From: Sporosarcina koreensis
GTDB taxonomy: Bacteria > Bacillota > Bacilli > Bacillales_A > Planococcaceae
Length of the DNA: 64,000 nt
Direction of reading: 5' to 3'
Assembly (NCBI RefSeq): GCF_000826145.2
Contig: NZ_LN651337.1
Coordinates: 1,665,714 to 1,729,713 of the forward strand
Each line of letters opens with the position of its first letter. Positions within the stretch are counted from its first letter, which is position 1. The position numbers and the translations under genes are program-made. Under the pieces are notes generated by a model. The model was not told the DNA's origin, searched no databases, and saw only the letters and a list, made by a program, of their open reading frames with translations. Shown in pieces: positions 8,318 through 60,975 of this stretch.

Positions 8318-8423
8318 TATCGGACAGTTGGCTGGGGTTATCGGACATTTGGCGCGTGGTATCGGACACTTGGGCGGAAGTATCGGACACACCGCCGAAT
8401 TTATCGGCATCCAGACACAATTC
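8318..8423 (+). repeat. Family 1 array, copy a (five 21-bp units)
   Basis: TATCGG cores begin at 8318, 8339, 8360, 8381 and 8402, all exactly 21 bp apart. The unit is TATCGGACA plus about 12 variable bases. The last unit is the conserved boundary form with CATCC then GACACAATTC. It is followed by a GTGCTCGCTCCCGCTCG-type flank also seen after copy d. The stretch 8273-8732 holds no credible gene, only this array, copy b and the argS terminator. Confidence 0.95.
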
Positions 8424-8552
8424 ACGAGCCTGGCTTGTGCTCGCTCCCGCTCGTTTGCTGCCGGAGCCGTCTTGGACGCGGCAGCTCTCCAGAACCATGA
8501 CGGCTTGTGCGGCGCGCAGAAAAAGACAAGCCATCCCTTGCACTGCCGGGCG

Positions 8553-8679
8553 TATCGGACAGTTGCTGAGAGATATCGGACACTTGGCGTGTGGTATCGG
8601 ACAGTTGGCGAGATGTATCGGACACTTGGGCGGAAGTATCGGACACTTCGCCGAATTCATCGGCATCCGGACACAATTC
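8553..8679 (+). repeat. Family 1 array, copy b (six 21-bp units)
   Basis: Unit starts at 8553, 8574, 8595, 8616, 8637 and 8658; every interval is 21 bp. It ends in the conserved boundary CATCCGGACACAATTC and abuts the argS terminator. The spacer of about 130 bp between copies a and b has the same layout as the spacer between copies d and e. Confidence 0.95.
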
Positions 8680-8698
8680 TCACCGATTCCGCGCATGC

Positions 8699-8729
8699 AA
8701 AAAGCCCGGCGCGTTCGGCGCCGGGCTTT
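8699..8729 (-). terminator. argS terminator
   Basis: GCCCGGCGC and GCGCCGGGC form a GC-rich hairpin; on the minus strand it is followed by a T-run. It lies four bases after the argS stop. Confidence 0.9.
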
Positions 8730-8732
8730 CGG

Positions 8733-10400
8733 TTACATGCGGTCGGGTGCTGCGACACCGACCAGTTTCAGTGCGTTGGCGATTGTTGTGCGGGTCGCGG
8801 TGACCAGTGCGATACGGGCTTCCGTCAGCTCACGGTTGTCCGGGTCGAGCACTTTTTCCGCATTGTAGAAGCTGTGGAACGTCGCCGCCAGCTCCTGGAT
8901 GTATGTCGTGATGCGGTGCGGCGCACGGAGGCGCGCCGCATCGCCGACGATTTGCGGGAAGTCGCCGATCTTCTTCAGCAGCTCGATCTCCTTCTCGGCC
9001 TTCAGCAGATCGACGTGCTCCATGGATGCTGCGAACCCTTGCTCCGCTGCTGCACGCAGGATCGACGAGATGCGGGCATGCGCATATTGTGCATAGTATA
9101 CCGGGTTTTCATTCGACTTGGACACAGCGAGGTCGAGGTCGAAGTCCATCTGCGAATCGCCGGAGCGCATCGCGAAGAAGTAGCGCGCTGCATCCAGACC
9201 GACGAGTTCCACGAGCTCACGCAACGTGACCGCCTTGCCCGTCCGTTTGCTCATCTTGAACTTCTCGCCGTCCTTATACAGCTGCACCATCTGCGCGACT
9301 TCCACTTCCAGCGTGTCGCGATCGTAGCCGAGCGCCTGGATGGCCGCTTTCATGCGTGGAATGTAGCCGTGGTGATCGGCACCCCAGATGTTGATGAGTG
9401 TGTCGAACCCGCGGCGCAGCTTGTCTTCGTGATACGCGATATCCGGCGTCAAGTATGTGTATGTGCCATCTTTTTTGATGAGGACACGGTCTTTATCATC
9501 GCCGAATTCGGTCGAACGGAACCACGTAGCGCCGTCCTCCTCATAGACATGACCGTTTTCACGGAGCTTGTTCAGGGCTACATCAATCTTGCCGTCCTTA
9601 TAGAGGGAGGTCTCGGAGAACCAGACGTCGAACGGCACGCGGAAATCGGCGAGGTCCTGCTTCAGCTTGCCGAGCTCGATGTCCAGGCCGTATTTGCGGA
9701 AGAACTGATAGCGTTCTTCATCCGGCACAGATACGAATTTGTCGCCGTATTCCGCGACGAGCTGCTTGGCGATATCAATGATGTCCGCGCCCTGGTAGCC
9801 GTCCGCAGGCATGTCCTTGTCGAGGCCGAGTTCCTGGAAATACCGGGCTTCGACGGAGCGTGCAAGGTTTTCGACCTGGTTGCCGGCGTCGTTGATGTAA
9901 TATTCGCGGGAGACATCATAGCCTGCGAAGTCGAGGATGCTGGAGAGCGCGTCGCCGAGCGATGCGCCGCGGGCATGGCCGAGGTGCAGGTCGCCGGTCG
10001 GGTTCGCCGAGACGAACTCGACCTGGATCTTTTCGTGCTGCCCGGACTCTGTGCGGCCGTAAGATTCTCCCTGGCTGAGCACCGTCTTGACGACGTCGCT
10101 CAAGTAATCCTTCTTGAGGATGATGTTCATGAATCCCGGACCTGCGATATCGACGGACTCGATCGATGTGCCGGATGTATCGAGCTTCTCGAGGATCGCT
10201 TCCGCAATCGAGCGCGGCGGCTTCTTCGCAATTTTCGTCAGCTGCATGGCGATGTTGGTCGCATAGTCGCCGTTGTCCTTGTTCTTCGGTGTTTCGAGCA
10301 TGATGTCCGGCAGGCTGGTCTCATCCGCCAGGCCGGTTCTCAGCACTGCTGTATGCAGGGCGTCTTTCACTTCGTTCTGGATCTGTTCAACTGCATTCAT
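8733..10400 (-). CDS. argS: Arginyl-tRNA synthetase
   Basis: A cytoplasmic class I aminoacyl-tRNA synthetase that charges tRNA-Arg. The 555 residues match the family length. The N-terminal Add1 domain (about 1-115) is followed by the catalytic domain with the HIGH-type motif HLGH at 139-142 inside [15 protein letters not shown], the KMSKS-type motif KMSKRTGK near residue 388, and the C-terminal anticodon-binding DALR domain ending in LKLVGV. It follows ywiB with an ATGA overlap, as in B. subtilis, and ends at a clear terminator. Confidence 0.98.
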
Positions 10401-10834
10401 CGTGTTCCCTCCGCGTAAGTAATAGTCAGTTCATAGTGTCCGAGCAATCCGTCTTCAGCGTGCATATCGTAGCTGACGCGGAATTCGCCGCGGTCGTGAT
10501 CTTCCGTCAGCAGGAGCTCATTCGTGACCACGTGCAGATCGAGCGCCAGCGGGCCGTTTGCATACGTGCCGGGCCGGGTCCCGCCGGGTGCGAATGGCAG
10601 CCGCATCCGGATTGCGCCGGTCCGCATGATGACCGCGTCTTCCGGATCGAGCTTGATCGTCGTCCGGACGGTTTCCGCGTTCTGCTTCTCTTCGTAGCGC
10701 AAGTACCGTCTGCCGCCTTTTTCCGTGATCGTCCCTGCCAGTTCGAGTTCCATGAAATCCGTGTCCTGTCCGGGATGCCGGATCTCCGATTTCAAGTTGA
10801 TCGTCACCGGTACGATTGGGGGCTGCGTTCCCAT
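10397..10834 (-). CDS. ywiB: DUF1934 beta-barrel protein YwiB
   Basis: A 145-residue protein of the DUF1934/YwiB family, predicted to fold as a small calycin-like beta-barrel; its function is not known. No signal peptide or membrane segment is visible. Alternating strand-like sequence runs throughout ([47 protein letters not shown]). It is the first gene of a two-gene operon with argS, the same pairing as in B. subtilis, and has a good promoter just upstream. Confidence 0.85.
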
Positions 10835-10868
10835 CCGTCCACCGCCTTTTCGAGTCTATATTCTATCT

Positions 10869-10898
10869 ATTATAGCGGCTGCCGCACGTTTTTTTCAA
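10869..10898 (-). promoter_or_regulatory. Sigma-A type promoter of ywiB-argS
   Basis: On the minus strand TTGAAA, 18 bases, then TATAAT, about 35 bases before the ywiB start. Confidence 0.65.
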
Positions 10899-10995
10899 TC
10901 CCGGCCTGTCCGTTGCCCTTTTTTGGAGAGTTCCGTTTAATTCACCTCCGCCATTCCCATACTGACCGCAAACGTTTTGGAAAGGACAGGATGCT

Positions 10996-13053
10996 ATGCG
11001 GCGGACGGATTTTGTGAAGAAGACCAGACGGAAAGCCCGGTACCGTTTCGCAGGGCTGCTGACGATCACGGGGTTCACGGCGGTGCTGACGGTTCTCATC
11101 TGCCTGCGGGTGTATGCGCAGATCGCAGGCCCGCCGTCGCTCAGTGTGCCCGAGGCGACGGTGTTCATCGACCGGAATGACCATCAGATCGGCGACCGGT
11201 TCTCCGGGGAGCGCCGCTACTGGGTCGGCTTGGATGAGATGTCTCCGTTCCTCGTCGATGCGTTCGTCGCGGTGGAGGATAAGAATTTCTACAAGCACGG
11301 CGGGTTCGATTATAAGCGGATTGCGGGCGCTGTCCTGAAGGATGTGAAGGCGGGCCGGAAAGCGGAAGGGGCCAGCACGATCACCCAGCAGTACGCACGG
11401 AACCTCTATCTGACGAACGAAAAATCATGGACCCGGAAAGCGAACGAAGCGCTCTATGCATACCGGATGGAGCTTTTTTACGATAAAGAACGCATCCTCG
11501 AAGGCTATCTGAACACTGTCTATTTCGGTCATGGTATGTACGGCGTCGAAGCCGCGAGCCGGTACTTCTTCGCGAAGCCGGCGGGGGAGCTGACGCTTGA
11601 GGAGGCGGCGGCCATCGCCGCCATCCCGAAAGGGCCGTCGATCTACTCCCCTGCCGCCAACAAGGAGAAAGCGGAAAACCGCCGCCAGATCGTGCTGCGG
11701 CTGATGGCGGAACAGGGGTTCATCTCCCCCGACCAGAGGGAACGGGCAGGCGGCCAGCAGCTTGTGCTGAAAACGGAAGAGTGGTCGGATCAGAAGGACA
11801 TCGCTCCCTACTTCCTGAACGAAGTGTGGCAGGACGCAGAAAAGATCCTGGTCGGCAAAGGGAGGTATCCTGCGGAAGGCGGCTGGACCATCAAGACGAC
11901 GCTCGATCTGGCGCATCAGCAGAAGGCGGAGGAGATCATCGCGGACCGGATGCCGGACAATGACCTGCAGATCGGGTTCGTCTCCATGAAACCGGATACC
12001 GGTGAAGTGACGGCGATGGTCGGCGGCCGGAGCTTTGCGGACAGTCCGTTCAACCGGGTCACACAGGCGAAGCGGCAGCCGGGCTCCGCCATGAAGCCGA
12101 TCCTGTATGCGGCGGCGCTTGAAGACGGGTTCAATCCGCTGACGTTCATCTCGACGGAAAAGACGATTTTCACGTATGACGACGGGCGTTCGTCGTACGA
12201 ACCGAGCAATGTCAACGGAAAATTCGGCGATCACCCGATTTCACTGGCACAGGCGCTCGCGGTGTCCGACAATATCTATGCCGTGAAGACGCTCGAGGAG
12301 ATCGGCTACCGGAAATACAATTCAATGGCCGAGAAGCTCGGCATCCAAGTGAAGTTCCCCGAGTCCCCCGCTGTCGCTCTCGGTACGTCCGCAGTGACAC
12401 TGTTCGAGATGACAGGCGCCTACAACCGGGTGGCGTCGGGCGGCCGGAAGATCGATCCTGTCCTGATCCTCTCCATCGAGGACTCCCGCGGGAAACTGGT
12501 GTATGAGCACCCTGAACAGACGAAGAAGCGGGCGATGACCGAGGAGAATGCGTTCGTCCTGACCCATCTGATGACGGGGATGTTCGACCCGGTGTTCAAT
12601 GACTATCTGACCGCGACCGGCGTATCGATGCGCGCTTCGCAGACGCGGCCGTATGCCGCAAAGTCCGGGACGACGCTGTCCGACCAATACTTGATCGGCT
12701 ACTCCCCGACACTGACGGCAGGCATCTGGACCGGCTACGACGTCGGCAGGCAGATCGAGGAAGCCGAGGACAAGGCGGCCTCGAAACGGATCTGGATCGA
12801 CTTCATGGAAAGTGCGCATTCCGGTCTACGGCCTGAGCCGTTCCTGCCGCCGCACGGAGTCAAAGGGGTCACCGTCGATATCGAGACAGGCGGCATCGCG
12901 GTGGAAGGCTGTGCGAAGCAGCGGCTCGTCTATCTGAAAGAACGCGATGTGCCGAAGCAGCTCTGTACGGATAAGACGCTGCGGGAGACCCGGCTGCAGG
13001 GGACGAAGGAGAAAAAAGGGTTCGATCTGTTCCCATTTTCGTTCTTTGAGTGA
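10996..13053 (+). CDS. Bifunctional class A penicillin-binding protein (PbpG-like)
   Basis: Polymerises and crosslinks peptidoglycan. The 685-residue protein has a short cytoplasmic tail and a membrane anchor at about residues 15-37. The glycosyltransferase 51 domain follows (EDKNFYKHGG with the catalytic Glu, then GASTITQQYARN). The transpeptidase domain has SAMK in PGSAMKP as the SxxK motif, SDN as SxN and KSGTT as KTG. The start at 10996 is preceded by GGAAAGGACAGG. The position beside ywiB-argS and ywhD corresponds to pbpG (ywhE) of B. subtilis, which acts in spore cortex formation; that role here is inferred from position. The speE-speB genes found between them in B. subtilis are absent. 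Confidence 0.93.
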   Translation: MRRTDFVKKTRRKARYRFAGLLTITGFTAVLTVLICLRVYAQIAGPPSLSVPEATVFIDRNDHQIGDRFSGERRYWVGLDEMSPFLVDAFVAVEDKNFYKHGGFDYKRIAGAVLKDVKAGRKAEGASTITQQYARNLYLTNEKSWTRKANEALYAYRMELFYDKERILEGYLNTVYFGHGMYGVEAASRYFFAKPAGELTLEEAAAIAAIPKGPSIYSPAANKEKAENRRQIVLRLMAEQGFISPDQRERAGGQQLVLKTEEWSDQKDIAPYFLNEVWQDAEKILVGKGRYPAEGGWTIKTTLDLAHQQKAEEIIADRMPDNDLQIGFVSMKPDTGEVTAMVGGRSFADSPFNRVTQAKRQPGSAMKPILYAAALEDGFNPLTFISTEKTIFTYDDGRSSYEPSNVNGKFGDHPISLAQALAVSDNIYAVKTLEEIGYRKYNSMAEKLGIQVKFPESPAVALGTSAVTLFEMTGAYNRVASGGRKIDPVLILSIEDSRGKLVYEHPEQTKKRAMTEENAFVLTHLMTGMFDPVFNDYLTATGVSMRASQTRPYAAKSGTTLSDQYLIGYSPTLTAGIWTGYDVGRQIEEAEDKAASKRIWIDFMESAHSGLRPEPFLPPHGVKGVTVDIETGGIAVEGCAKQRLVYLKERDVPKQLCTDKTLRETRLQGTKEKKGFDLFPFSFFE

Positions 13054-13179
13054 TACAGGGGCGGAGGACAGCCTGCTGCACCATTTGCGTCCTTCCGCAA
13101 ATTGGGCGGCAGCCTGTCCTCCTTTGAATGGGGCAGCCTCCATACAGCCGGATAGCCCGCATACATGCTTCTGTGGTGT

Positions 13180-13365
13180 TGCTTGAGCGGGGGACGGCTT
13201 TGCTTGAGCGCAGAGGCAACTTGCTTGAGCGCGGGATGACTCTGCTTGAGCGCGGGATGACTCTGCTTGAGCGCGGGATGATTTACTTGAGCGCGGGATG
13301 ACCCTGCTTGAGCGCAAGACGACTTACTTGAGCGCGGGACAACCTGCTTGAGCGCGGTGCTTCGA
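13180..13365 (+). repeat. Family 3 tandem array (CTTGAGCG units)
   Basis: Nine units with CTTGAGCG at 13182, 13203, 13224, 13245, 13266, 13286, 13307, 13327 and 13347; intervals are 20 or 21 bp. Consensus is roughly TGCTTGAGCGCGGGATGAC. It lies between the convergent pbp and ywhD genes. The sequence is unrelated to families 1 and 2 but the pitch is the same. Confidence 0.93.
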
Positions 13366-13370
13366 GCTGC

Positions 13371-13495
13371 CGCGTGAATGGAGCGGTTTGCGGGCGGAAT
13401 GGATCGCTTAGGCAGCGGAATGGAGCGGTTCAGCCTGTTGAAATACCGTGCAGCATTATGGATCGGGTCGCCGCGTGAATGGAGCGGTCCGCCGC
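13371..13495 (+). repeat. Family 3b degenerate array (GAATGGAGCGG units)
   Basis: Directly follows the CTTGAGCG array. GAATGGA-type units start at about 13376, 13397, 13418, 13456 and 13477; 21-bp steps are visible with one 38-bp gap. The rest of the intergenic stretch 13559-13675 shows nothing recognisable. Confidence 0.75.
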
Positions 13496-13515
13496 CCGCA
13501 CTATGCACAACCACG

Positions 13516-13558
13516 AAAAAAGCTTCCTGCCGTTGGGTCGAACGGCGGGAAGCTTTTT
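13516..13558. terminator. Bidirectional terminator between pbp and ywhD
   Basis: AAAAAGCTTCCTGCCGTT pairs with AACGGCGGGAAGCTTTTT around a short loop; there is an A-run on one side and a T-run on the other. Confidence 0.9.
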
Positions 13559-13675
13559 ATGCGGCGGGCGAGCCCGCGTGTCCTAGCCTACAATAGCAAG
13601 CTATCTTTTAGTTTACTGTGTTTCCGTGTGACATTCAACTACATGTTACCGGTTTTTCCCGTTGTCACAAAGCCT

Positions 13676-14206
13676 TCATAAATGAGGGGACGATTCGCTG
13701 AGTGCGATGTGGAGCTTCGGCTCGCTGTTGTTCCACATTTCTTCATTATGCTCTTTCAGGAAATCTGCGAGGATCTCCTTCGAAGTTTCATCCATATTGT
13801 CAACGAGGATCTGGCGTTTCATCGACTTGTCCATCCGGTTCACATGATCGGCCAGGATCTTATAGCCGCGTCGCTTCTCCCGGTTGACGATCATTTCACA
13901 GGATGTCACGCCCGCGTAATAGGGTCCGTTTTCATTGAAATCGATCGTCACCCAGATGAGCCAGTACAGCTTGCCGCCCTCCGAGTCTTCGCGGTTCGTT
14001 GTGAACTTGATGCCCCGCTCGATATCGCTTTTCGCATGCATGGCGCCCACTTCGATGGAGGCCGTGCCTTCTTCTGTATCGATCATGACGGGTGTCACGT
14101 TCTCAAGCGACAGCGATCCGATGCCGAACCCTTTGTGTCCGTCAGTCGGATCGTTCTTGATGATCGTGAAGCCCAGCTTCTGTTTCGGTTTCTGCTCGTC
14201 TGCCAT
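13676..14206 (-). CDS. ywhD: YwhD family protein
   Basis: A 176-residue cytoplasmic protein of the YwhD family, function unknown. The start at 14206 (MADEQKPKQKLGF) follows a GAAGGGG ribosome binding site; an apparent N-terminal extension is only upstream non-coding frame. It is soluble and mixed alpha/beta, with YWLIWVTIDFNENGPYYAGVTSCEM in the middle and an acidic helix near the end (DETSKEILADFLKEHNEEM). Divergent from ywhB, 68 bases apart, in the same neighbourhood as in B. subtilis. Confidence 0.88.
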   Translation of the reverse strand: MADEQKPKQKLGFTIIKNDPTDGHKGFGIGSLSLENVTPVMIDTEEGTASIEVGAMHAKSDIERGIKFTTNREDSEGGKLYWLIWVTIDFNENGPYYAGVTSCEMIVNREKRRGYKILADHVNRMDKSMKRQILVDNMDETSKEILADFLKEHNEEMWNNSEPKLHIALSESSPHL

Positions 14207-14274
14207 TTCCGCAAGCCCCTTCCTTTCTGGTAGTATATCTACTATACCCAATTTACCGGAAAGGTGGAACCAGG

Positions 14275-14460
14275 ATGCCGTATGTAACTGTGAAGATGCT
14301 GGAAGGGCGGACGGATGAGCAGAAGCGCGAATTGTGTGAGAAAGTGACAGCCGTCGTTGCCGAGACTGTGAATGCACCGAAGGAAAAAGTCGTCGTGTTC
14401 ATTGAAGAAATGCCGAAATCGCATTACGCGGTCGCCGGCAAGCGCCTCAGCGACAATTGA
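14275..14460 (+). CDS. ywhB: 4-oxalocrotonate tautomerase family protein
   Basis: A 61-residue enzyme of the tautomerase superfamily. The mature protein would start with the catalytic Pro (MPYVTVKMLEGR); Arg12 and Arg39-type positions are partly represented by GRTDEQKREL. A normal short 4-OT subunit that assembles as a hexamer. Its physiological substrate in Bacillales is not established. Ends at a convergent terminator shared with ywgA. Confidence 0.9.
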   Translation: MPYVTVKMLEGRTDEQKRELCEKVTAVVAETVNAPKEKVVVFIEEMPKSHYAVAGKRLSDN

Positions 14461-19059: not shown

Positions 19060-19220
19060 TGGGGGGGTTATGAGCAGTTCTGGATGGTTTATGATCACTT
19101 TCTGGGGTTTATGATCACTTTGGGAGATTTATGAGCGGAATCACATGTTTATGATCACTTTGGGAGTTTTATGATCACTTTTGCCGGTTTATGAGCGGAA
19201 CGGCGCTGTTTATGATCAGT
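19060..19220 (+). repeat. Family 2 array, copy a
   Basis: Eight TTATGA cores at 19068, 19089, 19109, 19129, 19149, 19169, 19189 and 19210 (intervals 21, five of 20, then 21). Units are of two kinds: TTATGATCACTTT and TTATGAGCGGAA. Lies between the convergent hemQ and NERD genes; nothing else is seen in 19033-19307. Confidence 0.95.
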
Positions 19221-19307
19221 TCAGTTTGCGGCAGCTCCCCCCTTCTGCACTGCTGCCCGAAACAGAAAACGCTTCGCAAGGCGAAGCGCAGCAAGTCAAT
19301 CTCGGTT

Positions 19308-20467: not shown

Positions 20468-20645
20468 TGTGAAGTTATGAGCGGTTTAGTGCAGTTTATG
20501 ATCGCTTTCCGGAGTTTATGATCACTTTGCCAGGTTTATGATCGGAACCGCAGATTTATGATCACTTTCTCAATTTTATGAGCGGAATCGCGAGTTTATA
20601 ATCACTTTGCCAGGTTTATGAGCATTCCCCGGCTTTATGTGGGTC
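20468..20645 (+). repeat. Family 2 array, copy b
   Basis: Starts with the conserved edge TGTGAAGTTATGAGC. Cores at 20475, 20496, 20516, 20536, 20556, 20576, 20596, 20616 and about 20635 (first interval 21, then 20). This copy is unusual in lying between divergent genes (NERD protein and cwlJ). Apart from it, 20262-20738 shows no gene. Confidence 0.95.
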
Positions 20646-21636: not shown

Positions 21637-22017
21637 TCAGTGGCTGAACTTCACAGCGGCGATGATCAGCATGATCCACCCGGCGATGAACGCCATACCG
21701 CCGATCGGCGTGATGGCACCGAGGATACCGATTCCCGACAGGCTCAAAATGTACAGACTGCCGGAAAAGATGATGATTCCGACGAGCAGAAGCCAGCCGG
21801 CCCATGTCAGCGATGCCGACGGGCCGAACAGTGACGGGCTCATCAGGATGCCGACCGCAAGCAAAGCGATGGCATGAAACATCTGATAGTGGACCGCCTT
21901 CTCCCAGACGTCCAGATAGTGGGCAGACAGCCTGTCCGCAAGCGCATGGGCGCCAAATGCGCCAAGGGCGACGGAAATCGCTCCATTGACCGCCCCTGCG
22001 ATGATGAAAAATGGCAT
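21637..22017 (-). CDS. ywdK: DUF423 membrane protein YwdK
   Basis: A 126-residue protein with four hydrophobic helices (about 4-24, 45-62, 70-90 and 96-120), matching the DUF423 family. The N-terminal GAVNGAISVALGAFGAHAL and the later FHAIALLAVG are family signatures. Function is not known. It is the last gene of a run ung - small Cys protein - ywdI - ywdK on the minus strand, conserved in B. subtilis order apart from missing members. Confidence 0.9.
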   Translation of the reverse strand: MPFFIIAGAVNGAISVALGAFGAHALADRLSAHYLDVWEKAVHYQMFHAIALLAVGILMSPSLFGPSASLTWAGWLLLVGIIIFSGSLYILSLSGIGILGAITPIGGMAFIAGWIMLIIAAVKFSH

Positions 22018-22053
22018 ATGCAGTTCCTACTTTCCTCTATATGATGAATTCAA

Positions 22054-22326
22054 TCAAAAATCGAACAGCGACCCGCCGTTGGCATCGTCTTCTTCAAGCA
22101 CCCGGCCTTCGAGCGGCTGGCTCACCGGCATGGATGAAGCGGCCGGCATGGCAGCAGGCGAGGAGGGCTCAACCTGCCTCCCGCTTGCCCGCTCCCTGTC
22201 CAGGATGAGGCCGCATAGCGATTCCATGACCGCCACCGACTCCCGGATTGCGGCTTCATCCCCCGATGTCCTGGCTTTTGTCAGCTGTGTCTGCAGTTCG
22301 TCCAGCACACGGTTCACTGAGATCAT
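22054..22326 (-). CDS. ywdI: YwdI/DUF5327 family small protein
   Basis: A 90-residue soluble protein starting at ATG 22326 (MISVNRVLDELQTQLTKARTS) after GGGAGCGGGGG. The N-terminal 55 residues are helical; then comes a Ser/Pro/Ala-rich linker and an acidic end (LEEDDANGGSLFDF). It resembles YwdI of B. subtilis; function unknown. The ATG overlaps the stop of the 58-residue gene upstream, so the two are translationally coupled. Confidence 0.75.
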   Translation of the reverse strand: MISVNRVLDELQTQLTKARTSGDEAAIRESVAVMESLCGLILDRERASGRQVEPSSPAAMPAASSMPVSQPLEGRVLEEDDANGGSLFDF

Positions 22327-28064: not shown

Positions 28065-28208
28065 TGTGAAGTTATGAGCACTTTGGAGTGGGTTATGAGC
28101 GGAAATCTGGGTTTATGATCACTTCCGAGGGTTTATGAGCAGACACTGGGTTTTATGATCACTTTGGCGAGTTTATGAGCGGAACGGCCGGGTTTATGAT
28201 CACTTTGC
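28065..28208 (+). repeat. Family 2 array, copy c
   Basis: Begins with CAATTGTGAAGTTATGAGC. Cores at 28072, 28093, 28113, 28133, 28153, 28173 and 28194 (21, four of 20, 21). The first 70 or so bases are almost identical to the start of copy d. Confidence 0.95.
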
Positions 28209-28349
28209 TTTCACCAGCGCCCCCTTGCCCCGACGGCACTACGAAAAGGGCGGAGCCGCAGGCGGAGCTGACAAGCCAATCTTTGATTTGTCTGTTTTCT
28301 GCGCGGCTCAGCGATTTGCAGACGTTATTGATTTGCCGCGGACCCGGCA

Positions 28350-28515
28350 ATTGTGAAGTTATGAGCACTTTGGAGTGGGTTATGAGCGGAAATCTGGGTT
28401 TATGATCACTTCCGCGGGTTTATGAGCGAAAACCGGGATTTATGATCACTTTCACGGGTTTATGAGCGGAATGGCGATGTTTATGATCACTTTCCCTGTT
28501 TTATGAGCAAAACGC
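28350..28515 (+). repeat. Family 2 array, copy d
   Basis: Cores at 28359, 28380, 28400, 28420, 28440, 28460, 28481 and 28501. Near-identity with copy c over the leading 70 or so bases points to a recent local duplication. Copies c and d lie between the convergent yjiH-like and tdh genes. The 28209-28349 spacer holds no gene. Confidence 0.95.
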
Positions 28516-28538
28516 CCCGCGCGGCGGGGCGTTCATCA

Positions 28539-33883: not shown

Positions 33884-34028
33884 GTGTGAAGTTATGAGCG
33901 GTTTCGGCTTGTTTATGAGCACTTTCCTGGGTTTATGATCACTTTCCGTGATTTGTGAGCGAAATACAGTTTTTATGATCACTTTCACGAGTTTATGAGC
34001 GGTTCGACGCTGTTTATGATCACTTTGC
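33884..34028 (+). repeat. Family 2 array, copy e
   Basis: Begins with GGTGTGAAGTTATGAGCGG. Cores at 33892, 33913, 33933, 33953 (TTGTGA variant), 33973, 33993 and 34014 (21, four of 20, 21). Lies between two genes of the same strand (YczE-like upstream, ybaK end). The rest of 33753-34062 shows nothing. Confidence 0.95.
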
Positions 34029-34062
34029 TCTCAGCGAGGCTCCCCGTTCCCGCACAGCCACT

Positions 34063-40214: not shown

Positions 40215-40341
40215 GAATTGTGTCAGGATGCCGATAAATTCGATGAAGTGTCCGATACTTCGCGCAATCTGTCCGATATGGCCGGCCATCTGTCCGATAC
40301 TTCGCGCCAACTGTCCGATACACCACCCCAACTGTCCGATA
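40215..40341 (-). repeat. Family 1 array, copy c
   Basis: Reverse orientation. CCGATA cores at 40231, 40252, 40273, 40294, 40315 and 40336, each 21 bp apart. The boundary form GAATTGTGTC...GATGCCGATAAATTC is at the left end. It lies between divergent genes and covers most of the 323-base intergenic stretch. Confidence 0.95.
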
Positions 40342-47097: not shown

Positions 47098-47224
47098 TAT
47101 CGGACAGTTCGGGCGATGTATCGGACAGTTGGCGGGAGATATCGGACAAATCGCGGAAAGTATCGGACACTTCATCGCAAGTATCGGACACTTCGCCGAA
47201 TTTATCGGCATCCGGGCACAATTC
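47098..47224 (+). repeat. Family 1 array, copy d
   Basis: TATCGG cores at 47098, 47119, 47140, 47161, 47182 and 47203, all 21 bp apart. Ends in CATCCGGGCACAATTC, followed by a flank with GGTGTTCGCTCCGCTC, as after copy a. Copies d and e fill most of the intergenic stretch 47019-47541 between convergent genes. Confidence 0.95.
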
Positions 47225-47350
47225 AAGAGCATGGCTGGTGTTCGCTCCGCTCATTTCCTGTCAGCCCCGTCGCGGGCGCGGTGGCTCTCAAAAGTCCCGG
47301 ACGGCTTCATGGCGCGAAGAAACGCACAAGTCAGCCCTCCTCCAGAGCGG

Positions 47351-47477
47351 TATCGGACAGTTCGGGCGATGTATCGGACAGTTGGCGTGGGGTATCGGAC
47401 AGATCGCGGAAAGTATCGGACACTTCATCGCAAGTATCGGACACTCCGCCGAATTTATCGGCATCCGGACACATTTC
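47351..47477 (+). repeat. Family 1 array, copy e
   Basis: TATCGG cores at 47351, 47372, 47393, 47414, 47435 and 47456, each 21 bp apart. Very similar to copy d, unit by unit, which suggests a duplication including the 120-base spacer. Confidence 0.95.
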
Positions 47478-50587: not shown

Positions 50588-50614
50588 TTTGCCCTGCGGT
50601 CCATCCCATGGGCC

Positions 50615-50795
50615 GCGTTCATAAATCTTTGGAAGTGATCATAAGAATGGATTTCCGCTCATAAATCTGCAAATGTGATCATAAAATCCAGTTTCCGCTC
50701 ATAAACCCGCAAAAGTGATCATAAACTCCGGTTTTCTGCTCACAAATCTCCCGAAGTGATCATAACCGTCCCGAGAGCGCTCATAACTTCACACA
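50615..50795 (-). repeat. Family 2 array, copy f
   Basis: Reverse orientation. TCATAA cores at 50619, 50639, 50659, 50679, 50699, 50719, 50740, 50760 and 50781; the conserved edge GCTCATAACTTCACA is at the right end. Reading from that edge the first interval is 21, then 20 and 21, then 20s. It covers most of the 331 bases between the convergent yusW-like and ABC genes. Confidence 0.95.
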
Positions 50796-54683: not shown

Positions 54684-55592
54684 TCATGCTGTCTCCTCTT
54701 TCGCTTTCCCTCCGGCAATCGAGATACCAGTCACACCGAGCAGCATGATGATAGCACCGCCGAGCTGCCACATACCGAGGACAGCACCGAGCCACGTGAC
54801 CGATACGATCATCGCCGTCAGCGGCTCGAAACTCGAGAGAATGCTCGTTTCAATCGGGGAAATGTACTTCATGCTGCCGAGGAACAGCAGGAAGGCCACT
54901 GTACCGACGATAATGACGCCAAGGAGCATGAGTGCAACTTTCCAATCAAGCAGATAGTGGAACTCCCTGAACAGGCGCAGCGGGTTCATCACAAACAACG
55001 CCGCTCCACCGGCGACCATCGCCCAGCCGATCGACAGCAGAACCCCCCATTCCTGCATGAGACGGACCGGGTACAGCGTATAGAATGTAAAGGCGAACCC
55101 GACGGCAACCCCCCAGAAGACCGCTGCCGGCGTGAGACTGAAGCCAGACAGCGACCCGTTCGTCAGCAGCAGGAACAGTCCCCCGAGCGTGACGAGCATC
55201 CCCGCAATCTGAGCGAGCGGCGGAACGAACCGCTGACGCACCGACACGAAAAGGATGACATAGATCGGCGACAGGAACTGGAACAGCGTCGCAATCACCG
55301 CGTTGCTTTCGCTGATTGCGGATGTGAAGGCGAACTGGACGCCAAGCATTCCGAGCACCCCGAAAATGACCATCTGACGGGCCCATACTTTCTGCCGCCA
55401 AGGTCGCATCACCGGTTTGCCCTTCAGTTTTAAATAGGTAATTAGCAATAGGCCTGCGATCAGCAGCCGGTTCGTTAGCAGGAACGAGACCGACATCCCG
55501 CTGTTCTCCAGTATCCATTCCATCATTGGCCCGGAAAGTCCCCATAAAGCGGCCCCGCTTATAATCATTGCAAGTCCTTTTACCCGTTCCAT
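54684..55592 (-). CDS. EamA/DMT superfamily transporter
   Basis: A 302-residue protein with ten hydrophobic helices arranged as two EamA repeats (about 7-140 and 150-290). The first helix reads GLAMIISGAALWGLSGPMMEWIL and the SPIETSILSSFEPLTAMIVSV stretch in the second repeat is a family signature. The C-terminus is short and charged (GKAKEETA). Members export or import amino acids and other metabolites; substrate not predictable. Confidence 0.9.
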   Translation of the reverse strand: MERVKGLAMIISGAALWGLSGPMMEWILENSGMSVSFLLTNRLLIAGLLLITYLKLKGKPVMRPWRQKVWARQMVIFGVLGMLGVQFAFTSAISESNAVIATLFQFLSPIYVILFVSVRQRFVPPLAQIAGMLVTLGGLFLLLTNGSLSGFSLTPAAVFWGVAVGFAFTFYTLYPVRLMQEWGVLLSIGWAMVAGGAALFVMNPLRLFREFHYLLDWKVALMLLGVIIVGTVAFLLFLGSMKYISPIETSILSSFEPLTAMIVSVTWLGAVLGMWQLGGAIIMLLGVTGISIAGGKAKEETA

Positions 55593-55719
55593 CCATTCAC
55601 CTTCGTTTCCTCGTTGATATGATTCTATCTATGTGCTTGTATAAATTTCATAATATAGGTGAAAAGTTCAAGGTTTTGGTCTATACTGGTCTTATGAACT
55701 AGTTGAAAGGGGAACTTCC

Positions 55720-57375
55720 ATGACCACCTTACACGAACAGCATGATCTGGATATGCCTGACGTCCGGCACAGTCTCGATCATTACTATATGGTAACCCAA
55801 ACAGATGCGGAAGGTCTCGTACTTTCTGTAAATAAAAACTTTCTGAATGTAAGCAATTGGACTCCGAAGCGGGTTCTTGGGAAAACGATCTGGCAGCTGT
55901 TCGATGAAGACGAAAAAGCGCAGAACACGATCCACCACATATGGACACAGCTGCAATCGGGGAAAACCTGGTTCGGCACGGCACAGAAACAGAAACGGAC
56001 CGGCGAACCGTACTTCACGAACATGCTGGCCGTGCCGTCGATGGAGGAGGACGGCAGTCTGGCGCGTGCGCTGTTCCTCGAACTCGACATCACGGAAGAC
56101 ATCCGGCTGAAAGAGCGGCTCGAGCAGATTGCTTTCATCGATATCGAAACCGGTCTCATGAGCCGCCACAAACTGGAATCGCTTGTCAATGACATGATCC
56201 GGGAAGAGAAGAGCTTCTCCTTCGTCTACCTGTCCATCGATCATTATTACACATTGAAAGAGCTGCAGAACGGGACGGATGAAACGGAACTCACACAGGC
56301 ATTCGCAAACCGCATGAAGCGCTATTTCCAGGACAATCCGATCGCACGCATCGGCAGCAGCCAGTTCGTCATACTGACACCGTTCGGGGACTGGTACGTC
56401 CAGGGCTTCCTCGACTTCCTGGAACAGCAGCCGCTCTATATCGGAAGTGAAGCGCTGCCGCTGTCGATCAGCGGGGGCATCGTCCGGTATCCGGAAGACC
56501 AGAAAAGCTACGTCACCCTGCTCGAAGCGGCAGTGATGACGCTCGACGAAGTGCGGAAGCAGGGCGGCGGCAAGATCGTGTCCCTGTCGGCAACGTCGCA
56601 CAAAGTGCTGAACCGCCGGTCGCTCATCAACCGGAAACTGCTGACAGCGCTCGATCACAAGGCGCTCGAAGTCGCGTTCCAGCCCCAGTACGATGTGGCG
56701 TCAAAGCAGGTCAAGGTCTACGAAGCACTTGTCCGCTGGGAGGATGAGGAACTCGGCACTGTCTCGCCGGATGAACTGATCCCGATCGCCGAATCGAATG
56801 GCCTGATCGCCAATATCGGCGAATATGTCCTGTCGGAAGCAGCCCGTCTTGCCGTGAGGCTTGAGGAACAGGAAGGCAGCCCGCATGTGTCTGTCAACAC
56901 GTCGGTGCGCGAATTCTCGAACCATCCTATGAAGGAAAACATGCTCAGCATCCTGCAGACTGAAGGATGCCGGCCGGGCCAGCTGGAACTCGAGATCACC
57001 GAAAAATTCGCCTTCCGGGCCGAAGAGGAACAGTCCATCATCCAGCAGATGAAGGAACTGCAGGATGCCGGTGTGAACTTCATCCTCGATGATTTCGGGA
57101 CCGGCTACGCCTCGTTCCGCTACATGCAGTACTTGCCGATCTCCAAAGTGAAGATCGACAAAGTGTACATGAACAGCCTCGTGAGTCATCCGAAGACGCA
57201 GCAGCTCGTCGAAGGGATGATCCAGTTCAGCAAGACGATGGGCCTGTACACGATTGCGGAAGGCGTCGAGACGCAGGCCCAGTTCGACCTGCTCGTCTCG
57301 ATGGGGATCGATGCGGTCCAGGGATACTATATCGGTGCGCCTGTTCCTGCAGAGAAGCTGCATATCCGCAACTAA
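55720..57375 (+). CDS. PAS-GGDEF(degenerate)-EAL protein, c-di-GMP phosphodiesterase
   Basis: A 551-residue signalling protein with no membrane segment. A PAS domain (about 20-130; YYMVTQTDAEGLVLSVNKNFLNVSNW) is followed by a GGDEF-like domain (about 140-300) in which the active site reads GSSQF, so cyclase activity is not expected. The EAL domain (about 315-551) is intact: YEALVRW, VNTSVREF, ELEITEKF, DDFGTGYAS, SKVKIDK, AEGVET and QGYYIGAP. It should hydrolyse c-di-GMP, possibly in response to a PAS signal. It is convergent with a glycosyltransferase locus that looks c-di-GMP dependent. Confidence 0.93.
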   Translation: MTTLHEQHDLDMPDVRHSLDHYYMVTQTDAEGLVLSVNKNFLNVSNWTPKRVLGKTIWQLFDEDEKAQNTIHHIWTQLQSGKTWFGTAQKQKRTGEPYFTNMLAVPSMEEDGSLARALFLELDITEDIRLKERLEQIAFIDIETGLMSRHKLESLVNDMIREEKSFSFVYLSIDHYYTLKELQNGTDETELTQAFANRMKRYFQDNPIARIGSSQFVILTPFGDWYVQGFLDFLEQQPLYIGSEALPLSISGGIVRYPEDQKSYVTLLEAAVMTLDEVRKQGGGKIVSLSATSHKVLNRRSLINRKLLTALDHKALEVAFQPQYDVASKQVKVYEALVRWEDEELGTVSPDELIPIAESNGLIANIGEYVLSEAARLAVRLEEQEGSPHVSVNTSVREFSNHPMKENMLSILQTEGCRPGQLELEITEKFAFRAEEEQSIIQQMKELQDAGVNFILDDFGTGYASFRYMQYLPISKVKIDKVYMNSLVSHPKTQQLVEGMIQFSKTMGLYTIAEGVETQAQFDLLVSMGIDAVQGYYIGAPVPAEKLHIRN

Positions 57376-57377
57376 GG

Positions 57378-57412
57378 AAAGAGCACTGCCTGCGGGCAGC
57401 GCTCTTTCTTTG
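57378..57412. terminator. Bidirectional terminator
   Basis: AAGAGC and GCTCTT arms enclose a second GCTGCC-type stem; it lies between the EAL and glycosyltransferase genes. Confidence 0.7.
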
Positions 57413-57415
57413 TGT

Positions 57416-58717
57416 TCACTTCTGTTTGAAGCGTTCCGTTTTGTCCCAGCCGATGATCTGCCGGTTCTTTTTGGCCTTGACATACAGAATGAGACTCCGA
57501 ACGAACAGGTACGAAAACAGCTGCGCATACGTGAAATACATGATGACGCTGATGAACACATTGAGCGGTGTGAATGTCCGCTGTGTCGCTTGCGCTGCGA
57601 ACAGCTGCGTCGTGTAGACGATGTACGCCAGATACCAGATGAACAGCAGCGGGTAGGTGTATTCGATGTAGAAAATATCGAGCAGGCCTAGGATGAACCA
57701 GATATACGAGATGACGAGAAACAGCCAAAACACGACATAGACGAGCAGCTGATGGATGGAATGGACGAGCAGCTTGCCTTTGAAATAACCGGGTTCCGTC
57801 AGCGTCTTCTCGACGATGTACAGGTTCCCCTGCAGCCAGCGGGTCCGCTGTTTCAAATAGACGCCGAGCGTTTCCGGTTCCTGTTCCCACGTAATGGAGT
57901 CCGGGACGATCGGCAGGTAGTAGCCCGCTTTCGTGATCCGCAGCGTCAGTTCTGCATCTTCTGCGATCGCATACGGATCATACCCGCCGAGTTCCTCGAT
58001 GACGGACCGCCGGACAAGCATGTTGGTCCCCGTCAGCGAGCCGGTCTTGAACAGCTGCCAGCGGCCCGACTGCATGAGCAGCTGGAACACCTGGAACTCG
58101 ATCGAGATCATCCGTGTCAGCCAGTTCGCCTGCTCGTTGACCGTCCGGACATAGCCGACCGCGCCGGCAGACTTCGGATTGCTTTCGGCTACGGCGACAA
58201 GCTTGACGAGCGCTTCCGGATCCGGCTGATTGTCGGCATCGTATACGCAGTAGTAGGTCCCGCCGGAAATGCTCAATCCATAGTTGAGCACCCTGGACTT
58301 CCCTTTCGGTTCGCCGGGCGGCACGAGTATATGATGGACGTTGGTGAATGTAGCCGCGAAGTCCTCGGCGATGTCTCCGGTTTCATCGGACGAATTGTCG
58401 TTCAGTACGTAGATCTGCAGATTGCCTGGATAGTTCAGCCGGGTCATCGCTTCGATTGTGTCCTGGATGACGACCCCTTCGTTATGCGCAGGAATCAGTA
58501 TATCGACACTTGGATACTCGGCGAGCTCCGGAATCTCCTGCCCCTTCAGCCGGTTGTAGAGACCCGCAATCGTCAGCATGGAGTAATACCCGAGCAGCAG
58601 CAGGAACAGCGCCGTCGTGAAGAACAGCAGCAGCTTTACGTTGAACACAGCCGCGACAACCAGCAAAACGATGAACAGGAAGGCGGTCGTCAGCAGGATG
58701 ATCAGACGTCTGTTCAT
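57416..58717 (-). CDS. Membrane glycosyltransferase family 2 (YdaM-like, exopolysaccharide)
   Basis: A 433-residue processive-type GT2 enzyme. Two N-terminal helices (about 7-50), a catalytic domain (about 65-300) with VDILIPAHNEG, YCVYDADNQPD, AIAEDAELTLR and QRTRWLQG, then three or four C-terminal helices. These are the D, DxD, ED and QxxRW motifs of synthases such as IcaA and YdaM. The ATG overlaps the stop of the upstream gene. With the YdaK-like protein it resembles the ydaJKLMN locus of B. subtilis, which makes a polysaccharide under c-di-GMP control; that similarity is an inference. Confidence 0.9.
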   Translation of the reverse strand: MNRRLIILLTTAFLFIVLLVVAAVFNVKLLLFFTTALFLLLLGYYSMLTIAGLYNRLKGQEIPELAEYPSVDILIPAHNEGVVIQDTIEAMTRLNYPGNLQIYVLNDNSSDETGDIAEDFAATFTNVHHILVPPGEPKGKSRVLNYGLSISGGTYYCVYDADNQPDPEALVKLVAVAESNPKSAGAVGYVRTVNEQANWLTRMISIEFQVFQLLMQSGRWQLFKTGSLTGTNMLVRRSVIEELGGYDPYAIAEDAELTLRITKAGYYLPIVPDSITWEQEPETLGVYLKQRTRWLQGNLYIVEKTLTEPGYFKGKLLVHSIHQLLVYVVFWLFLVISYIWFILGLLDIFYIEYTYPLLFIWYLAYIVYTTQLFAAQATQRTFTPLNVFISVIMYFTYAQLFSYLFVRSLILYVKAKKNRQIIGWDKTERFKQK

Positions 58718-59499
58718 GGAATCACCAGCAGTTCATCGAGTGTCCGCTGCCCTTCTATCTTCCGGGTCTCCCAGCCGATCTGCTTGAACGCGTCTGGTTC
58801 GAGCTGGCGCAGCATCGCTTCTTGCAGCCGCTGTTCGACGACAGCATAGCCCTCGTCACCGATATTCTGCAGCAGGAAGACGATCGTGCTGCCATCCAGC
58901 TGGCCGACGAGATCATAGTGTTTCCGGAGCGTCCCGTAGATGGCGGCACCGCTTGCCGCCATCGCCTGCTTCCGGGCAGCTCTTCGCAGTGCCGACAGAT
59001 CCGCAGTCACGATATAGCCCGGTTCCCGGTGCCGTTCCATGGACGATAACACCAACGATGCCTGTTTCTCGAACTCCCGTTTCGTCAGTACGCCCTGCTC
59101 GGAGATGAATTCCCGGAGTTCCTCCACCCGCTGCTTCAGTTCCCTGTTTTCCAGACGGTACGAATAGACGTATTTCGCCACGCTATAGAGCGCGAACAGG
59201 TGAAGCAGGAACAGGAAATGGAGCCCGATGCCCGCCGCCTGTTCACCGGGTGACCAGCCATCCAGGAAGGCCCGGTACAGGAAATAGAAAACTGTCATGA
59301 GGGTGAACAGAATATAGAAGAAAAAGGCCGTCCTGTCCGTGACCAGGAAGAAAAGCACCGCACAGACCGTCAGCACAATTGCAATGACAGCCTGGTCCGC
59401 CTGCAGCTGGAGCCCGATCAGCAGAGATGCACTACCCAGCCAGATGACTGACGCGAATGGCAGCTGCAGACGCTGCCAGCGTGTTTGTTTCGTTTCCAT
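58714..59499 (-). CDS. Membrane protein with degenerate GGDEF domain (YdaK-like)
   Basis: A 261-residue protein from ATG 59499, eight bases after GGAGG. Four hydrophobic helices lie at about 15-115, then a coiled coil (about 118-145), then a GGDEF-like domain (about 150-250). Where GGDEF is expected the sequence reads QLDGST (YDLVGQLDGSTIVFLL), so no cyclase activity is likely. A Lys-His-Tyr-Asp stretch sits where the RxxD inhibitory site would be, so c-di-GMP binding through that site is possible but altered. The layout resembles YdaK, a c-di-GMP receptor. It overlaps the GT2 gene. Confidence 0.8.
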   Translation of the reverse strand: METKQTRWQRLQLPFASVIWLGSASLLIGLQLQADQAVIAIVLTVCAVLFFLVTDRTAFFFYILFTLMTVFYFLYRAFLDGWSPGEQAAGIGLHFLFLLHLFALYSVAKYVYSYRLENRELKQRVEELREFISEQGVLTKREFEKQASLVLSSMERHREPGYIVTADLSALRRAARKQAMAASGAAIYGTLRKHYDLVGQLDGSTIVFLLQNIGDEGYAVVEQRLQEAMLRQLEPDAFKQIGWETRKIEGQRTLDELLVIP

Positions 59500-59634
59500 C
59501 CGTCCCGCCTCCATCCTGAAATTCTGTCAGTTGTATGTCCTTCTCTTAGTCTATGCAAAACGAGCCAGTGTTTGCAAGGCGGACAGACGGGAATACTCTG
59601 ATTAGATAGAAAATCGGTAAGGAGGATTCAACCT

Positions 59635-60516
59635 ATGTCTGAGAACAAATATGAAAAGATCGATGAACAGGTGAAACCCCAGACGCAGGAACAGCAGCCC
59701 GGTGTCGAAGAAGAGATGTCACCCCAGCCGATCTACGACGATGAAAACTACAAAGGTTCCGGAAAGCTGAAAGGGAAAAAAGCGCTGATCAGCGGCGGTG
59801 ACAGCGGAATCGGACGTGCCGTGGCCGTTGCGTTCGCGAAAGAAGGGGCGGATGTCGCCATCGCCTATCTGAGCGAGGACGAAGACGTCGATGCCGACAA
59901 GACGGTCAAACTGATCGAGCAGTATGGCGGGAAAGCATGGAAGAGGCGCATCGATATCAGTGACGAGGAAAACTGCGAGACGCTTATCGAGGATGTCGTC
60001 AAAGAGTTCGGCGGTCTTGATGTGCTGGTCAACAATGCAGGAAAACAGTTCCCGCAGAAATCGCTGCTCGATATTTCAGGCGACCAGCTCCGGGAAACGT
60101 TCGACACGAACTTCTTCGGACTGTTCTTCTTGACGCGCGCCGCACTCCCTCACTTGAAAGAAGGCGCATCGATCGTGAATACGTCATCCGTGACCGCCTA
60201 TAACGGATCCCCGGGACTGCTCGATTATTCGGCGACCAAAGGGGCGATCACGACATTCACACGCTCCCTCGCGCTCAACCTCGCGGAGAAGAAGATCCGC
60301 GTGAATGCAGTGGCACCGGGCCCGATCTGGACACCGCTCATCCCGTCGACATTCGACGCAAAGACAGTGGAGGCCCACGGCAGCGACACGCCGATGAAAC
60401 GGCGTGGTGAACCGGCCGAAAACGCACCGGCCTACGTGTTCCTCGCCTCCGATGATGCCAGCTACATGACCGGCCAGACGATCCACGTCGACGGCGGCGA
60501 CTACGTCGGCTCATAA
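59635..60516 (+). CDS. Short-chain dehydrogenase/reductase (YhdF/YdaD-like)
   Basis: A 293-residue SDR enzyme with a 45-residue charged N-terminal extension typical of general stress proteins of Bacillales (EQVKPQTQEQQPGVEEEMSPQPIYD). The coenzyme motif is SGGDSGIGRA; NNAG, the catalytic Ser in NTSSVTAYNG and the YSATKGA Tyr-Lys pair are all present, and the C-terminus has HVDGGDYVGS. ATG 59635 follows AAGGAGG. The substrate is unknown; related proteins belong to the sigma-B stress response in B. subtilis. Confidence 0.9.
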   Translation: MSENKYEKIDEQVKPQTQEQQPGVEEEMSPQPIYDDENYKGSGKLKGKKALISGGDSGIGRAVAVAFAKEGADVAIAYLSEDEDVDADKTVKLIEQYGGKAWKRRIDISDEENCETLIEDVVKEFGGLDVLVNNAGKQFPQKSLLDISGDQLRETFDTNFFGLFFLTRAALPHLKEGASIVNTSSVTAYNGSPGLLDYSATKGAITTFTRSLALNLAEKKIRVNAVAPGPIWTPLIPSTFDAKTVEAHGSDTPMKRRGEPAENAPAYVFLASDDASYMTGQTIHVDGGDYVGS

Positions 60517-60526
60517 TCACGGCCCA

Positions 60527-60561
60527 CACGCCCTGCGGAATTGTTCCGCAGGGCATTTTTT
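60527..60561 (+). terminator. SDR gene terminator
   Basis: CGCCCTGCGGAA pairs with TTCCGCAGGGC, followed by ATTTTTT. Confidence 0.9.
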
Positions 60562-60564
60562 CGT

Positions 60565-60790
60565 CGTGCGCGTATTCGCTTCCTGCCCGCGCGTATCTCC
60601 CCTCTTGCCGCGCGTATTTTTCGCCGCGCGCGTATTTGCTTCCCGTCCGCGCGTATCTCCTCTCCTGCCGCGCGTATTTTCCGTCGCACGCGTATTTCGC
60701 CTCTGGCCGCGCGTATCTGGTGCCTGCCCGCGCATATCTCCCCTTCCGTCGCGCGTATTTTTTCGCCGCGCGCGTATCCGCTGCTTCGCC
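60565..60790 (+). repeat. Family 4 array (CGCGCGTAT units, 60-bp superperiod)
   Basis: CGTAT cores at 60571, 60592, 60613, 60631, 60652, 60673, 60691, 60712, 60733 (CATAT variant), 60754 and 60773. Intervals run 21, 21, 18, repeated, so the three-unit block repeats every 60 bp for nearly four blocks. GC-rich and unrelated in sequence to the other families. It is followed after about 60 bases by family 1 copy f. Confidence 0.93.
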
Positions 60791-60848
60791 GCGCATGTGC
60801 GAGCGAAGTCCCACACAAAACGAACGGAGTGAGCACCAATCATCCTTT

Positions 60849-60975
60849 GAATTGTGCCCAGATGCCGATAAATTCGGCGAAACGTCCGATACTTCACAGG
60901 TTCTGTCCGATATCACCCGTGAAATGGCGGATATCCTCCGCAAACTGTCCGATACACCGCAGGTTCTGTCCAATA
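60849..60975 (-). repeat. Family 1 array, copy f
   Basis: Reverse orientation. Cores at 60865, 60886, 60907, 60928 (CGGATA variant), 60949 and 60970 (CCAATA variant), all exactly 21 bp apart. The boundary (GAATTGTGCCC) is at the left, and the reverse complement of a GTGCTCACTCCGTTCG flank precedes it. Confidence 0.93.

Follow-up and report, generated by a model that had tools for sequence, protein, structure and literature searches.

Phased 21-bp arrays between the genes of Sporosarcina koreensis as putative docking sites for a DNA-binding protein

Introduction

What keeps a nine-base word in steps of exactly 21 base pairs (bp) between the genes of a bacterium, while most of the bases separating its copies vary? 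The question is raised by a stretch of 64,000 nucleotides from Sporosarcina koreensis (RefSeq assembly GCF_000826145.2, contig NZ_LN651337.1, positions 1,665,714 to 1,729,713), referred to here in its full length as the window. A sequence-only reading had singled out six intergenic arrays, here called family 1 (F1), in which a conserved core recurs every 21 bp and a common boundary unit closes each array. It had proposed that strict spacing with variable filler reflects selection on phase, either for a binding surface of two helical turns or for seven codons of an open frame, and it knew of no described element of this form; our search of open-access text likewise found no description of such phased arrays. 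We report here that the core and its register look selected in place, and we put forward, with roughly even confidence, the view that the arrays are phased, cooperative multi-site docking sites on double-stranded DNA for a putative sequence-specific protein with a role at the level of the genome.

Results

A nine-base core recurs in a fixed register

All six F1 arrays were re-found in the window, and every exact TATCGGACA of the window lies inside one of them. Their 29 intervals are all of 21 bp; with the end unit counted, five copies have six units and that at 8318-8423 has five, as had been described. Each array is closed by an end unit of the form TATCGGCAT...CACAATTC or close to it. The array at 60849-60975 is degenerate, one of its five cores carrying two mismatches and two carrying one. 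Genome-wide, a search for two cores separated by 2 to 32 bases (a spacing of 11 to 41 bp) returned 205 pairs, 203 of them spaced by exactly 21 bp, and the reversed-pattern control returned 0; the free variation of the interval that would have spoken against phasing was thus not seen. The end unit ATCGGCATCCGGACACAATTC, with up to three mismatches, occurs 71 times in the genome (control, 0).

A catalogue was built from 353 kb of DNA selected for arrays, mostly around array end units: stretches at 68 of the 71 end-unit places (the three omitted were weak), an array-dense 60-kb stretch, and the window. It holds 69 F1 arrays by our own chaining rule, a few entries being pieces of one interrupted array. 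Five cores are present in 51 arrays, four in 8, three in 4, six in 3, and two, seven, and eleven in one each, and the typical end unit is like TATCGGCATCCGGACACAATTC. Neighboring cores (at most one mismatch each, at most 45 bp apart) are separated by 21 bp in 265 of 269 intervals, and three scrambled 9-mers jointly gave 2 pairs in the same DNA versus the 269 of the true core. Among 284 distinct units, positions 1 to 9 read TATCGGACA at 93 to 100%, with C as an alternative at position 7; position 11 is T or A, position 12 mostly T, position 13 C or G, and the remainder loose. The consensus fillers show a mild alternation of TTCGCC and TTGGCG. Units of the same ordinal in different arrays are 97% identical in the core and 53% identical in the filler, and the constancy of the interval despite such divergence supports selection on phase. 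Isolated exact cores numbered 4, compared with 2.8 expected from base composition and 290 in arrays; with single cores at the level of chance, several copies seem to be needed.

The core is spared between two strains

Sequence change in place was assessed against genome G226, classed as the same species as the window's genome (G000). Matching by flanks was possible for 29 of the 69 F1 arrays, the other 40 having no spanning match in the available G226 DNA. At the matched arrays, changes amounted to 17/1198 in the core (1.4%), 148/1595 in the filler (9.3%), and 649/13947 in the flanks (core versus filler, Fisher P = 6e-21), and position 7 accounted for 9 of the 17 core changes. A hand count over the 23 arrays that are more than 89% identical gave 5 core and 43 filler changes. 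The six window arrays of a sister family with another core (family 2; TTTATGATCA) yielded 6/294 in the core, 46/423 in the filler, and 101/1765 in the flanks. Gaps inside the arrays of the 23 closest pairs measured 21, 42, 21, and 21 bp, besides one split gap totaling 21, one +1/-1 pair with no net effect, and two single bases at an array edge; in the flanks of these pairs there were 11 single-base gaps and 4 whole-unit gaps belonging to a neighboring array. With the core spared at matched arrays, and with net length changes inside the closest pairs amounting to whole units, both the core and its register seem to be under selection in place.

The arrays lie between genes in either orientation

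Genes were called by a home-made codon-usage script, not a published gene finder, and overlaps above 15 bp were counted. None of the 69 F1 arrays overlapped a gene called in this way, so the intergenic position described for the window holds for the whole catalogue. The 46 array-bearing gaps comprise 22 codirectional, 12 divergent, and 12 convergent ones; the corresponding numbers for every gap of 120 bp or more in these stretches are 67, 45, and 25. In 18 of the 46 regions the array shares the direction of its 5' gene, and in 18 that of its 3' gene. Arrays thus occur in either orientation to their neighbors and in gaps of mixed type, which favors DNA over RNA as the acting form. The 16 neighboring proteins that were scanned are ordinary, with no initiator among them; the genes beside the low-copy Ureibacillus arrays are ordinary too, with no mobile gene in that position. 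Genes with a NERD domain adjoin F1 arrays in two genera (L169:12471-13451 and L064:5372-6349), which may be chance.

The proposal of seven codons in an open frame had to be given up: the period of family 2 is 20 bp, no frame is open in all arrays, and the best frames differ between species groups. As to a protein-coding repeat in general, which was rejected, the three forward frames are open in 46, 42, and 43 of 64 in the window's genome and in 2, 6, and 22 of 27 in genera rich in A and T; the reverse frames are open in 62, 6, and 60 of 64 and in 2, 1, and 13 of 27, respectively.

Listed arrays concentrate in part of the chromosome

In the stretches of G226 that were sampled, the G-versus-C skew turns at 0.79-0.93 Mb and 2.29-2.43 Mb, with small exceptions; we read these turns as terminus and origin. 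Among the matches listed (40 of 72 candidates scored, some places being parts of one locus), 41 of the 48 BLAST places of a window array pair fall at 1.55-2.18 Mb, that is, in 0.63 of 3.06 Mb, on one arm near the skew-inferred origin. A genus member with a different core (G185; the third core, described below) has 26 of 26 exact pairs of that core at 3.67-4.23 Mb (0.55 of 4.67 Mb), all in one orientation. Runs of like orientation along contig C4 are longer than chance would give (14 runs over 44 loci versus 20.8 expected; P = 0.016). Both orientations are nevertheless present within one negative-skew arm, so that orientation does not follow replication, and a replication-polar site of the kind of FtsK-orienting polar sequences (KOPS) was not supported, orientation not being bound to the leading strand. 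A Bacillus dif sequence used as a query gave no match.

In the array-dense stretch G000:C4:1455001-1515000 (L031-L033), arrays occur every 1 to 2 kb in parts, all on the plus strand from 1463 kb. Accessory genes of this stretch differ between the strains, and a ComK gene adjoins (L031:2145-2693).

Many arrays are paired around a conserved spacer

Many F1 arrays form direct pairs, mostly 250 to 259 bp apart, that flank a conserved spacer. Thirty distinct spacers of 107 to 132 bp from both strains could be aligned, with near-complementary ends CTGGCTTGT and ACAAGCCAG; RNAalifold gave no convincing common fold for them. By eye, the family 2 pairs of the window enclose related spacer blocks. With such blocks inside family 2 pairs and, again by eye, a spacer-type block between an F1 array and a GCGCGTATT-type array at 60.8 kb, array types may be interchangeable around a common spacer.

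Relatives share the F1 core, and sister families carry other cores

The exact F1 pair was found in 5 of 261 family genomes, namely, the two strains and three others in two genera; extending the search to the order covered the same 261 genomes. A scan of named genomes gave at least 84 stretches; 44 were inspected, nearly all from Bacillales, and the rest were mostly single pairs from other phyla. The inspected stretches included F1-type arrays of Fredinandcohnia onubensis (Ferdinandcohnia in NCBI; Bacillaceae), Bacillus sp. REN16, Bacillus sp. SJS, Ornithinibacillus caprae, and the Caryophanaceae Ureibacillus acetophenoni and U. manganicus. In Fredinandcohnia, Bacillus sp. REN16, and Ureibacillus, the core and period are the same, mostly with 4 to 6 units, and the fillers are unrelated; three Fredinandcohnia and REN16 loci viewed whole had arrays of mostly 5 or 6 units with a terminator-like hairpin between them. 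Over 28 loci of these three groups and B. timonensis, 146 of 152 intervals are of 21 bp. The O. caprae loci L096, L104, L109, L128, and L136 have up to 25 nearly homogeneous units, with the core also as CATCGGACA; elsewhere the arrays are short and divergent.

Family 2 arrays were found in 10 of the 261 family genomes, all of the window's genus, with intervals of 20 bp in 132 of 144 cases in six stretches chosen for this family and in 25 of 32 in the window. A generic period search, which found arrays in 1 of 12 stretches not picked for known arrays, brought up a third core, TNGTTGSACACT (family 6), at L190 in a genome (G167) lacking exact F1 or family 2 pairs; one match of this search, in another genome (L189), overlaps a called gene. 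The family 6 core is present in 9 of 68 genus members, at intervals of 21, less often 19, and rarely 20 or 22 bp. The family 2 genomes (10 of 68) and the family 6 genomes do not overlap, as chance can give. In our own alignment the three cores match without gaps as TTATCGGACACTT (with the flanking Ts of Ureibacillus), TTTATGATCACTT, and TTGTTGGACACTT, and we infer that F1, family 2, and family 6 would form a superfamily of common descent.

Insertion elements and other features of the window

G226 has four copies (L208, L209, L210, and L211) of an approximately 1.77-kb element that contains IS110-family transposase domains, and G000 has none; all four sit at the identical point of a family 2 unit (TTCCGCTC, then CTCATAAA). 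A second transposon, with rve (DDE; 286 amino acids) and HTH_Tnp_1 (97 amino acids) genes, which on our own reading appears IS3-like, is present once in G226, inside the first unit of the F1 array 47098-47224 (L206). A 4-kb difference between the strains lies away from arrays (window 22017-22202 versus G226:C1:2135159-2139167). The features of the window are collected in Table 1. A cobalamin riboswitch at 8035-8220 on the minus strand, 5' of a periplasmic-binding-protein gene, adjoins the first array pair.

Table 1. Arrays and spacer blocks of the window (positions counted from its first letter)
Feature	Position	Strand	Remarks
F1 array	8318..8423	+	4 cores and end unit, 21-bp period
Conserved spacer	8424..8552	+	Joins paired F1 arrays; inverted ends GGCTTGT / ACAAGCC
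F1 array	8553..8679	+	5 cores and end unit; second of pair
Family 3 array	13179..13357	+	GCTTGAGCGCGGGA units, 21-bp period
Family 5 array	13376..13435	+	GAATGGAGCGGTT units; degenerate copies by eye to ~13490
Family 2 array	19066..19227	+	TTTATGATCA/TTTATGAGCG, 20-bp period
Family 2 array	20473..20633	+	G226 counterpart carries IS110-family element
Family 2 array	28070..28211	+	First of pair with spacer
Family 2 array	28357..28518	+	Second of pair
Family 2 array	33890..34031	+	
F1 array	40215..40341	-	5 cores and end unit; flanked by divergent genes (Na+/H+ exchanger-like; unknown protein)
F1 array	47098..47224	+	5 cores and end unit; G226 counterpart with transposon in first unit
Conserved spacer	47225..47350	+	Joins paired F1 arrays
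F1 array	47351..47477	+	5 cores and end unit; second of pair
Family 2 array	50607..50788	-	
Family 4 array	60557..60777	+	GCGCGTATT units, period ~20-21
Block resembling conserved-spacer start	60797..60848	-	Between F1 array and GCGCGTATT-type array; by eye
F1 array	60849..60975	-	5 cores (3 imperfect) and end unit

Discussion

A protein assembling along one face of the DNA fits the observations best, because the word is polar, its register is kept, its copies are multiple, no rule ties the arrays to gene orientation, and isolated sites are not in excess. Under this proposal, each 21-bp unit would offer one polar recognition word, TATCGG[A/C]CA-N-[T/A]-T-[C/G]; some five words about two helical turns apart would align the bound subunits next to one another along the same face of the helix; and selection would hold word and register and leave the filler free. 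The array would act at the level of the genome, by anchoring, bridging, or demarcating DNA, and not in the control of one regulon. In this scheme the core, the register, the usual number of units, the intergenic position, the sparing of the core at matched loci, and the family-specific cores are observations; the protein ligand, the cooperativity, and the genome-level role are putative. The two-turn binding surface of the sequence-only reading survives in part: the core changes 6.5-fold less than the filler at matched loci, but "exactly two turns" proved too narrow, the period being family specific (21 bp; 20 bp; 21 bp with a minority of 19) and Bacillus sp. SJS having only 25 of 39 intervals at 21 bp.

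Several observations weigh against a phased docking site. No binding protein was found, and the neighboring genes have no common function. In the sister strain, one matched locus holds a decayed array that still has the end motif, and in another no array was recognized, so that single arrays are dispensable. Anchoring of the alignment on cores may exaggerate the difference between core and filler in the 6 most diverged of the 29 arrays. Intervals of 21 bp make up only 82 of 99 in Ornithinibacillus and the smaller SJS fraction given above, the period differs between families, and Ornithinibacillus has long arrays of up to 25 homogeneous units, like ordinary tandem repeats.

The arrays could instead be a non-autonomous mobile repeat, similar to a repetitive extragenic palindrome (REP) or a miniature inverted-repeat transposable element, copied by a core-reading enzyme, in which case conservation would reflect copying and not use by the host. 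The 71 end units in one genome with their common end unit and spacer, the decay or loss of an array at two matched loci, the patchy distribution (5 of 261 family genomes), and the local clusters of like orientation are all in keeping with it. Copying or conversion, however, would carry the filler along with the core, whereas at the matched loci of the two strains the core is retained and the filler is not, and no pairing covariation compatible with a hairpin was found. Nor do Y1 transposase genes (PF01797, IS200-type and RAYT-type together) track the arrays: they occur in 14 of the 19 genus members that have an exact pair of F1, family 2, or family 6 cores and in 37 of the 49 that have none. 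Of 19 Y1 surroundings (mostly about 10 kb per side, two shorter), 17 are free of periodic arrays, another has a family-2-like array at a distance of about 6 kb, and the last has an 18-bp periodic stretch of other sequence. We consider a mobile repeat unlikely.

A role in RNA, with a transcribed array whose units bind an RNA-binding protein (e.g., of the GGA-reading CsrA type) or act as a sponge, seems to us rather improbable. The core does contain GGA, and on both strands real arrays fold more stably than filler-shuffled ones. Swapping units between arrays, however, leaves the energy unchanged, adjacent fillers show no base-pairing diagonal, and the stability is a matter of the consensus only. 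The strongest excess of pairing within the unit, between positions 18 and 21, is too close for a hairpin, and family 2 has no constant GGA. The mixed orientations reported above show no clear rule with respect to genes (18 of 46 on either side), and the only Rfam matches of the window, the cobalamin riboswitch and a tRNA, do not lie over an array.

Arrays might also be kept as homology handles, recombination between them swapping gene cassettes. This would suit a 76-kb array-dense stretch in which, on our own reading, 9 of the 12 breakpoints of six gene-content differences between the strains fall in array-bearing gaps, with arrays in 19 of 58 gaps. On the other hand, of the three large strain differences in the window, the two at arrays come from transposon insertions and the other lies away from arrays, one of the six gene-content differences is itself a transposase-like gene, and the 21-bp register is left unexplained, so that we rate this possibility very low. 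Ordinary tandem repeats grown by slippage without function, to which the 21- and 42-bp unit gains and losses between strains and the long homogeneous Ornithinibacillus arrays might point, are scarcely credible in view of fillers at 53% versus cores at 97% identity, 265 of 269 intact intervals, and the sparing of the core between strains. Equally hard to credit are chromosomal iteron decoys titrating the replication protein of incoming plasmids: five direct repeats near 21 bp do recall plasmid iteron sets such as that of P1 oriR, but an F1 query gave two plasmid matches shorter than 40 bp at E of at least 0.1 and no phage match, a family 2 query run against plasmids gave none (both searches being weak, because blastn needs 11 identical bases and fillers diverge), and none of 8 stretches from viral contigs had at least five units of divergent filler.

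Returning to the docking-site proposal, we can extend it, with low confidence, to the chromosome as a whole. The F1 arrays might belong, as one branch, to a larger superfamily of address arrays on the chromosomes of Bacillales/Caryophanales, with polar 19- to 21-bp units, often paired around a spacer, that are kept while the word is rewritten between lineages, co-evolving with a putative DNA-binding protein that marks or folds a sector of the chromosome. The concentration of the listed G226 F1 places and of the G185 third-core pairs in limited parts of their chromosomes is what suggests a sector. If the docking-site proposal is true, an abundant selected DNA element (69 F1 arrays in 353 kb, plus the sister families) has gone without a known protein partner, and a word kept within a species and different in sister species would show that binding sites can turn over fast in bacteria. 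A five-unit bait would offer a direct route to the partner.

Among known systems, matS, KOPS, and similar chromosome-domain sites resemble F1 in being words recognized on the chromosome whose layout is regional or polar; they are single dispersed sites, whereas F1 forms arrays with an orientation independent of the replication strand. The TAACTGA direct repeats of Beggiatoaceae are 7-bp heptamers, the majority just 5' of start codons, with 169 sets in one genome, a patchy distribution across distant lineages, and no known ligand (PMC4679880). They share with F1 the intergenic position, the direct repetition, the patchiness, and the lack of a known ligand; F1 differs from the heptamers in that its cores are of 9 bp and sit in a 21-bp frame, its filler varies, and it has no tie to one gene end. 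Unlike CRISPR loci, F1 arrays have a 9-bp core and fillers with an ordinal consensus and 53% identity between arrays, and no long near-identical repeats with unique spacers (cas genes were not searched), and unlike integron attC sites they are direct repeats without a hairpin or inverted-repeat site (integrase was not searched). REP and REPIN elements are, like the present arrays, intergenic, patchy, and present in tens of copies, and REPs are targets of the IS110-type element IS621, as the family 2 arrays are of an IS110-family element. In contrast to REPs and their associated tyrosine transposases (RAYTs), F1 repeats are direct and not palindromic, have no hairpin-compatible covariation within or between units, have no Y1 linkage, and are spared in the core in place. 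Plasmid iterons, the direct repeats bound by Rep proteins (e.g., in P1 oriR), resemble F1 arrays in the number of repeats (about five), in a repeat length near 21 bp, in being polar and not palindromic, and in combining a conserved core with a less strict filler, and F1 arrays, with their near-constant 21-bp interval (265 of 269), fall within the iteron range of phased repeats of about 17 to 22 bp. Unlike plasmid iterons, they have no rep gene among the 16 neighboring proteins scanned and no convincing plasmid match in the weak search, and F1-type elements occur as tens of chromosomal arrays, with several cores per genome.

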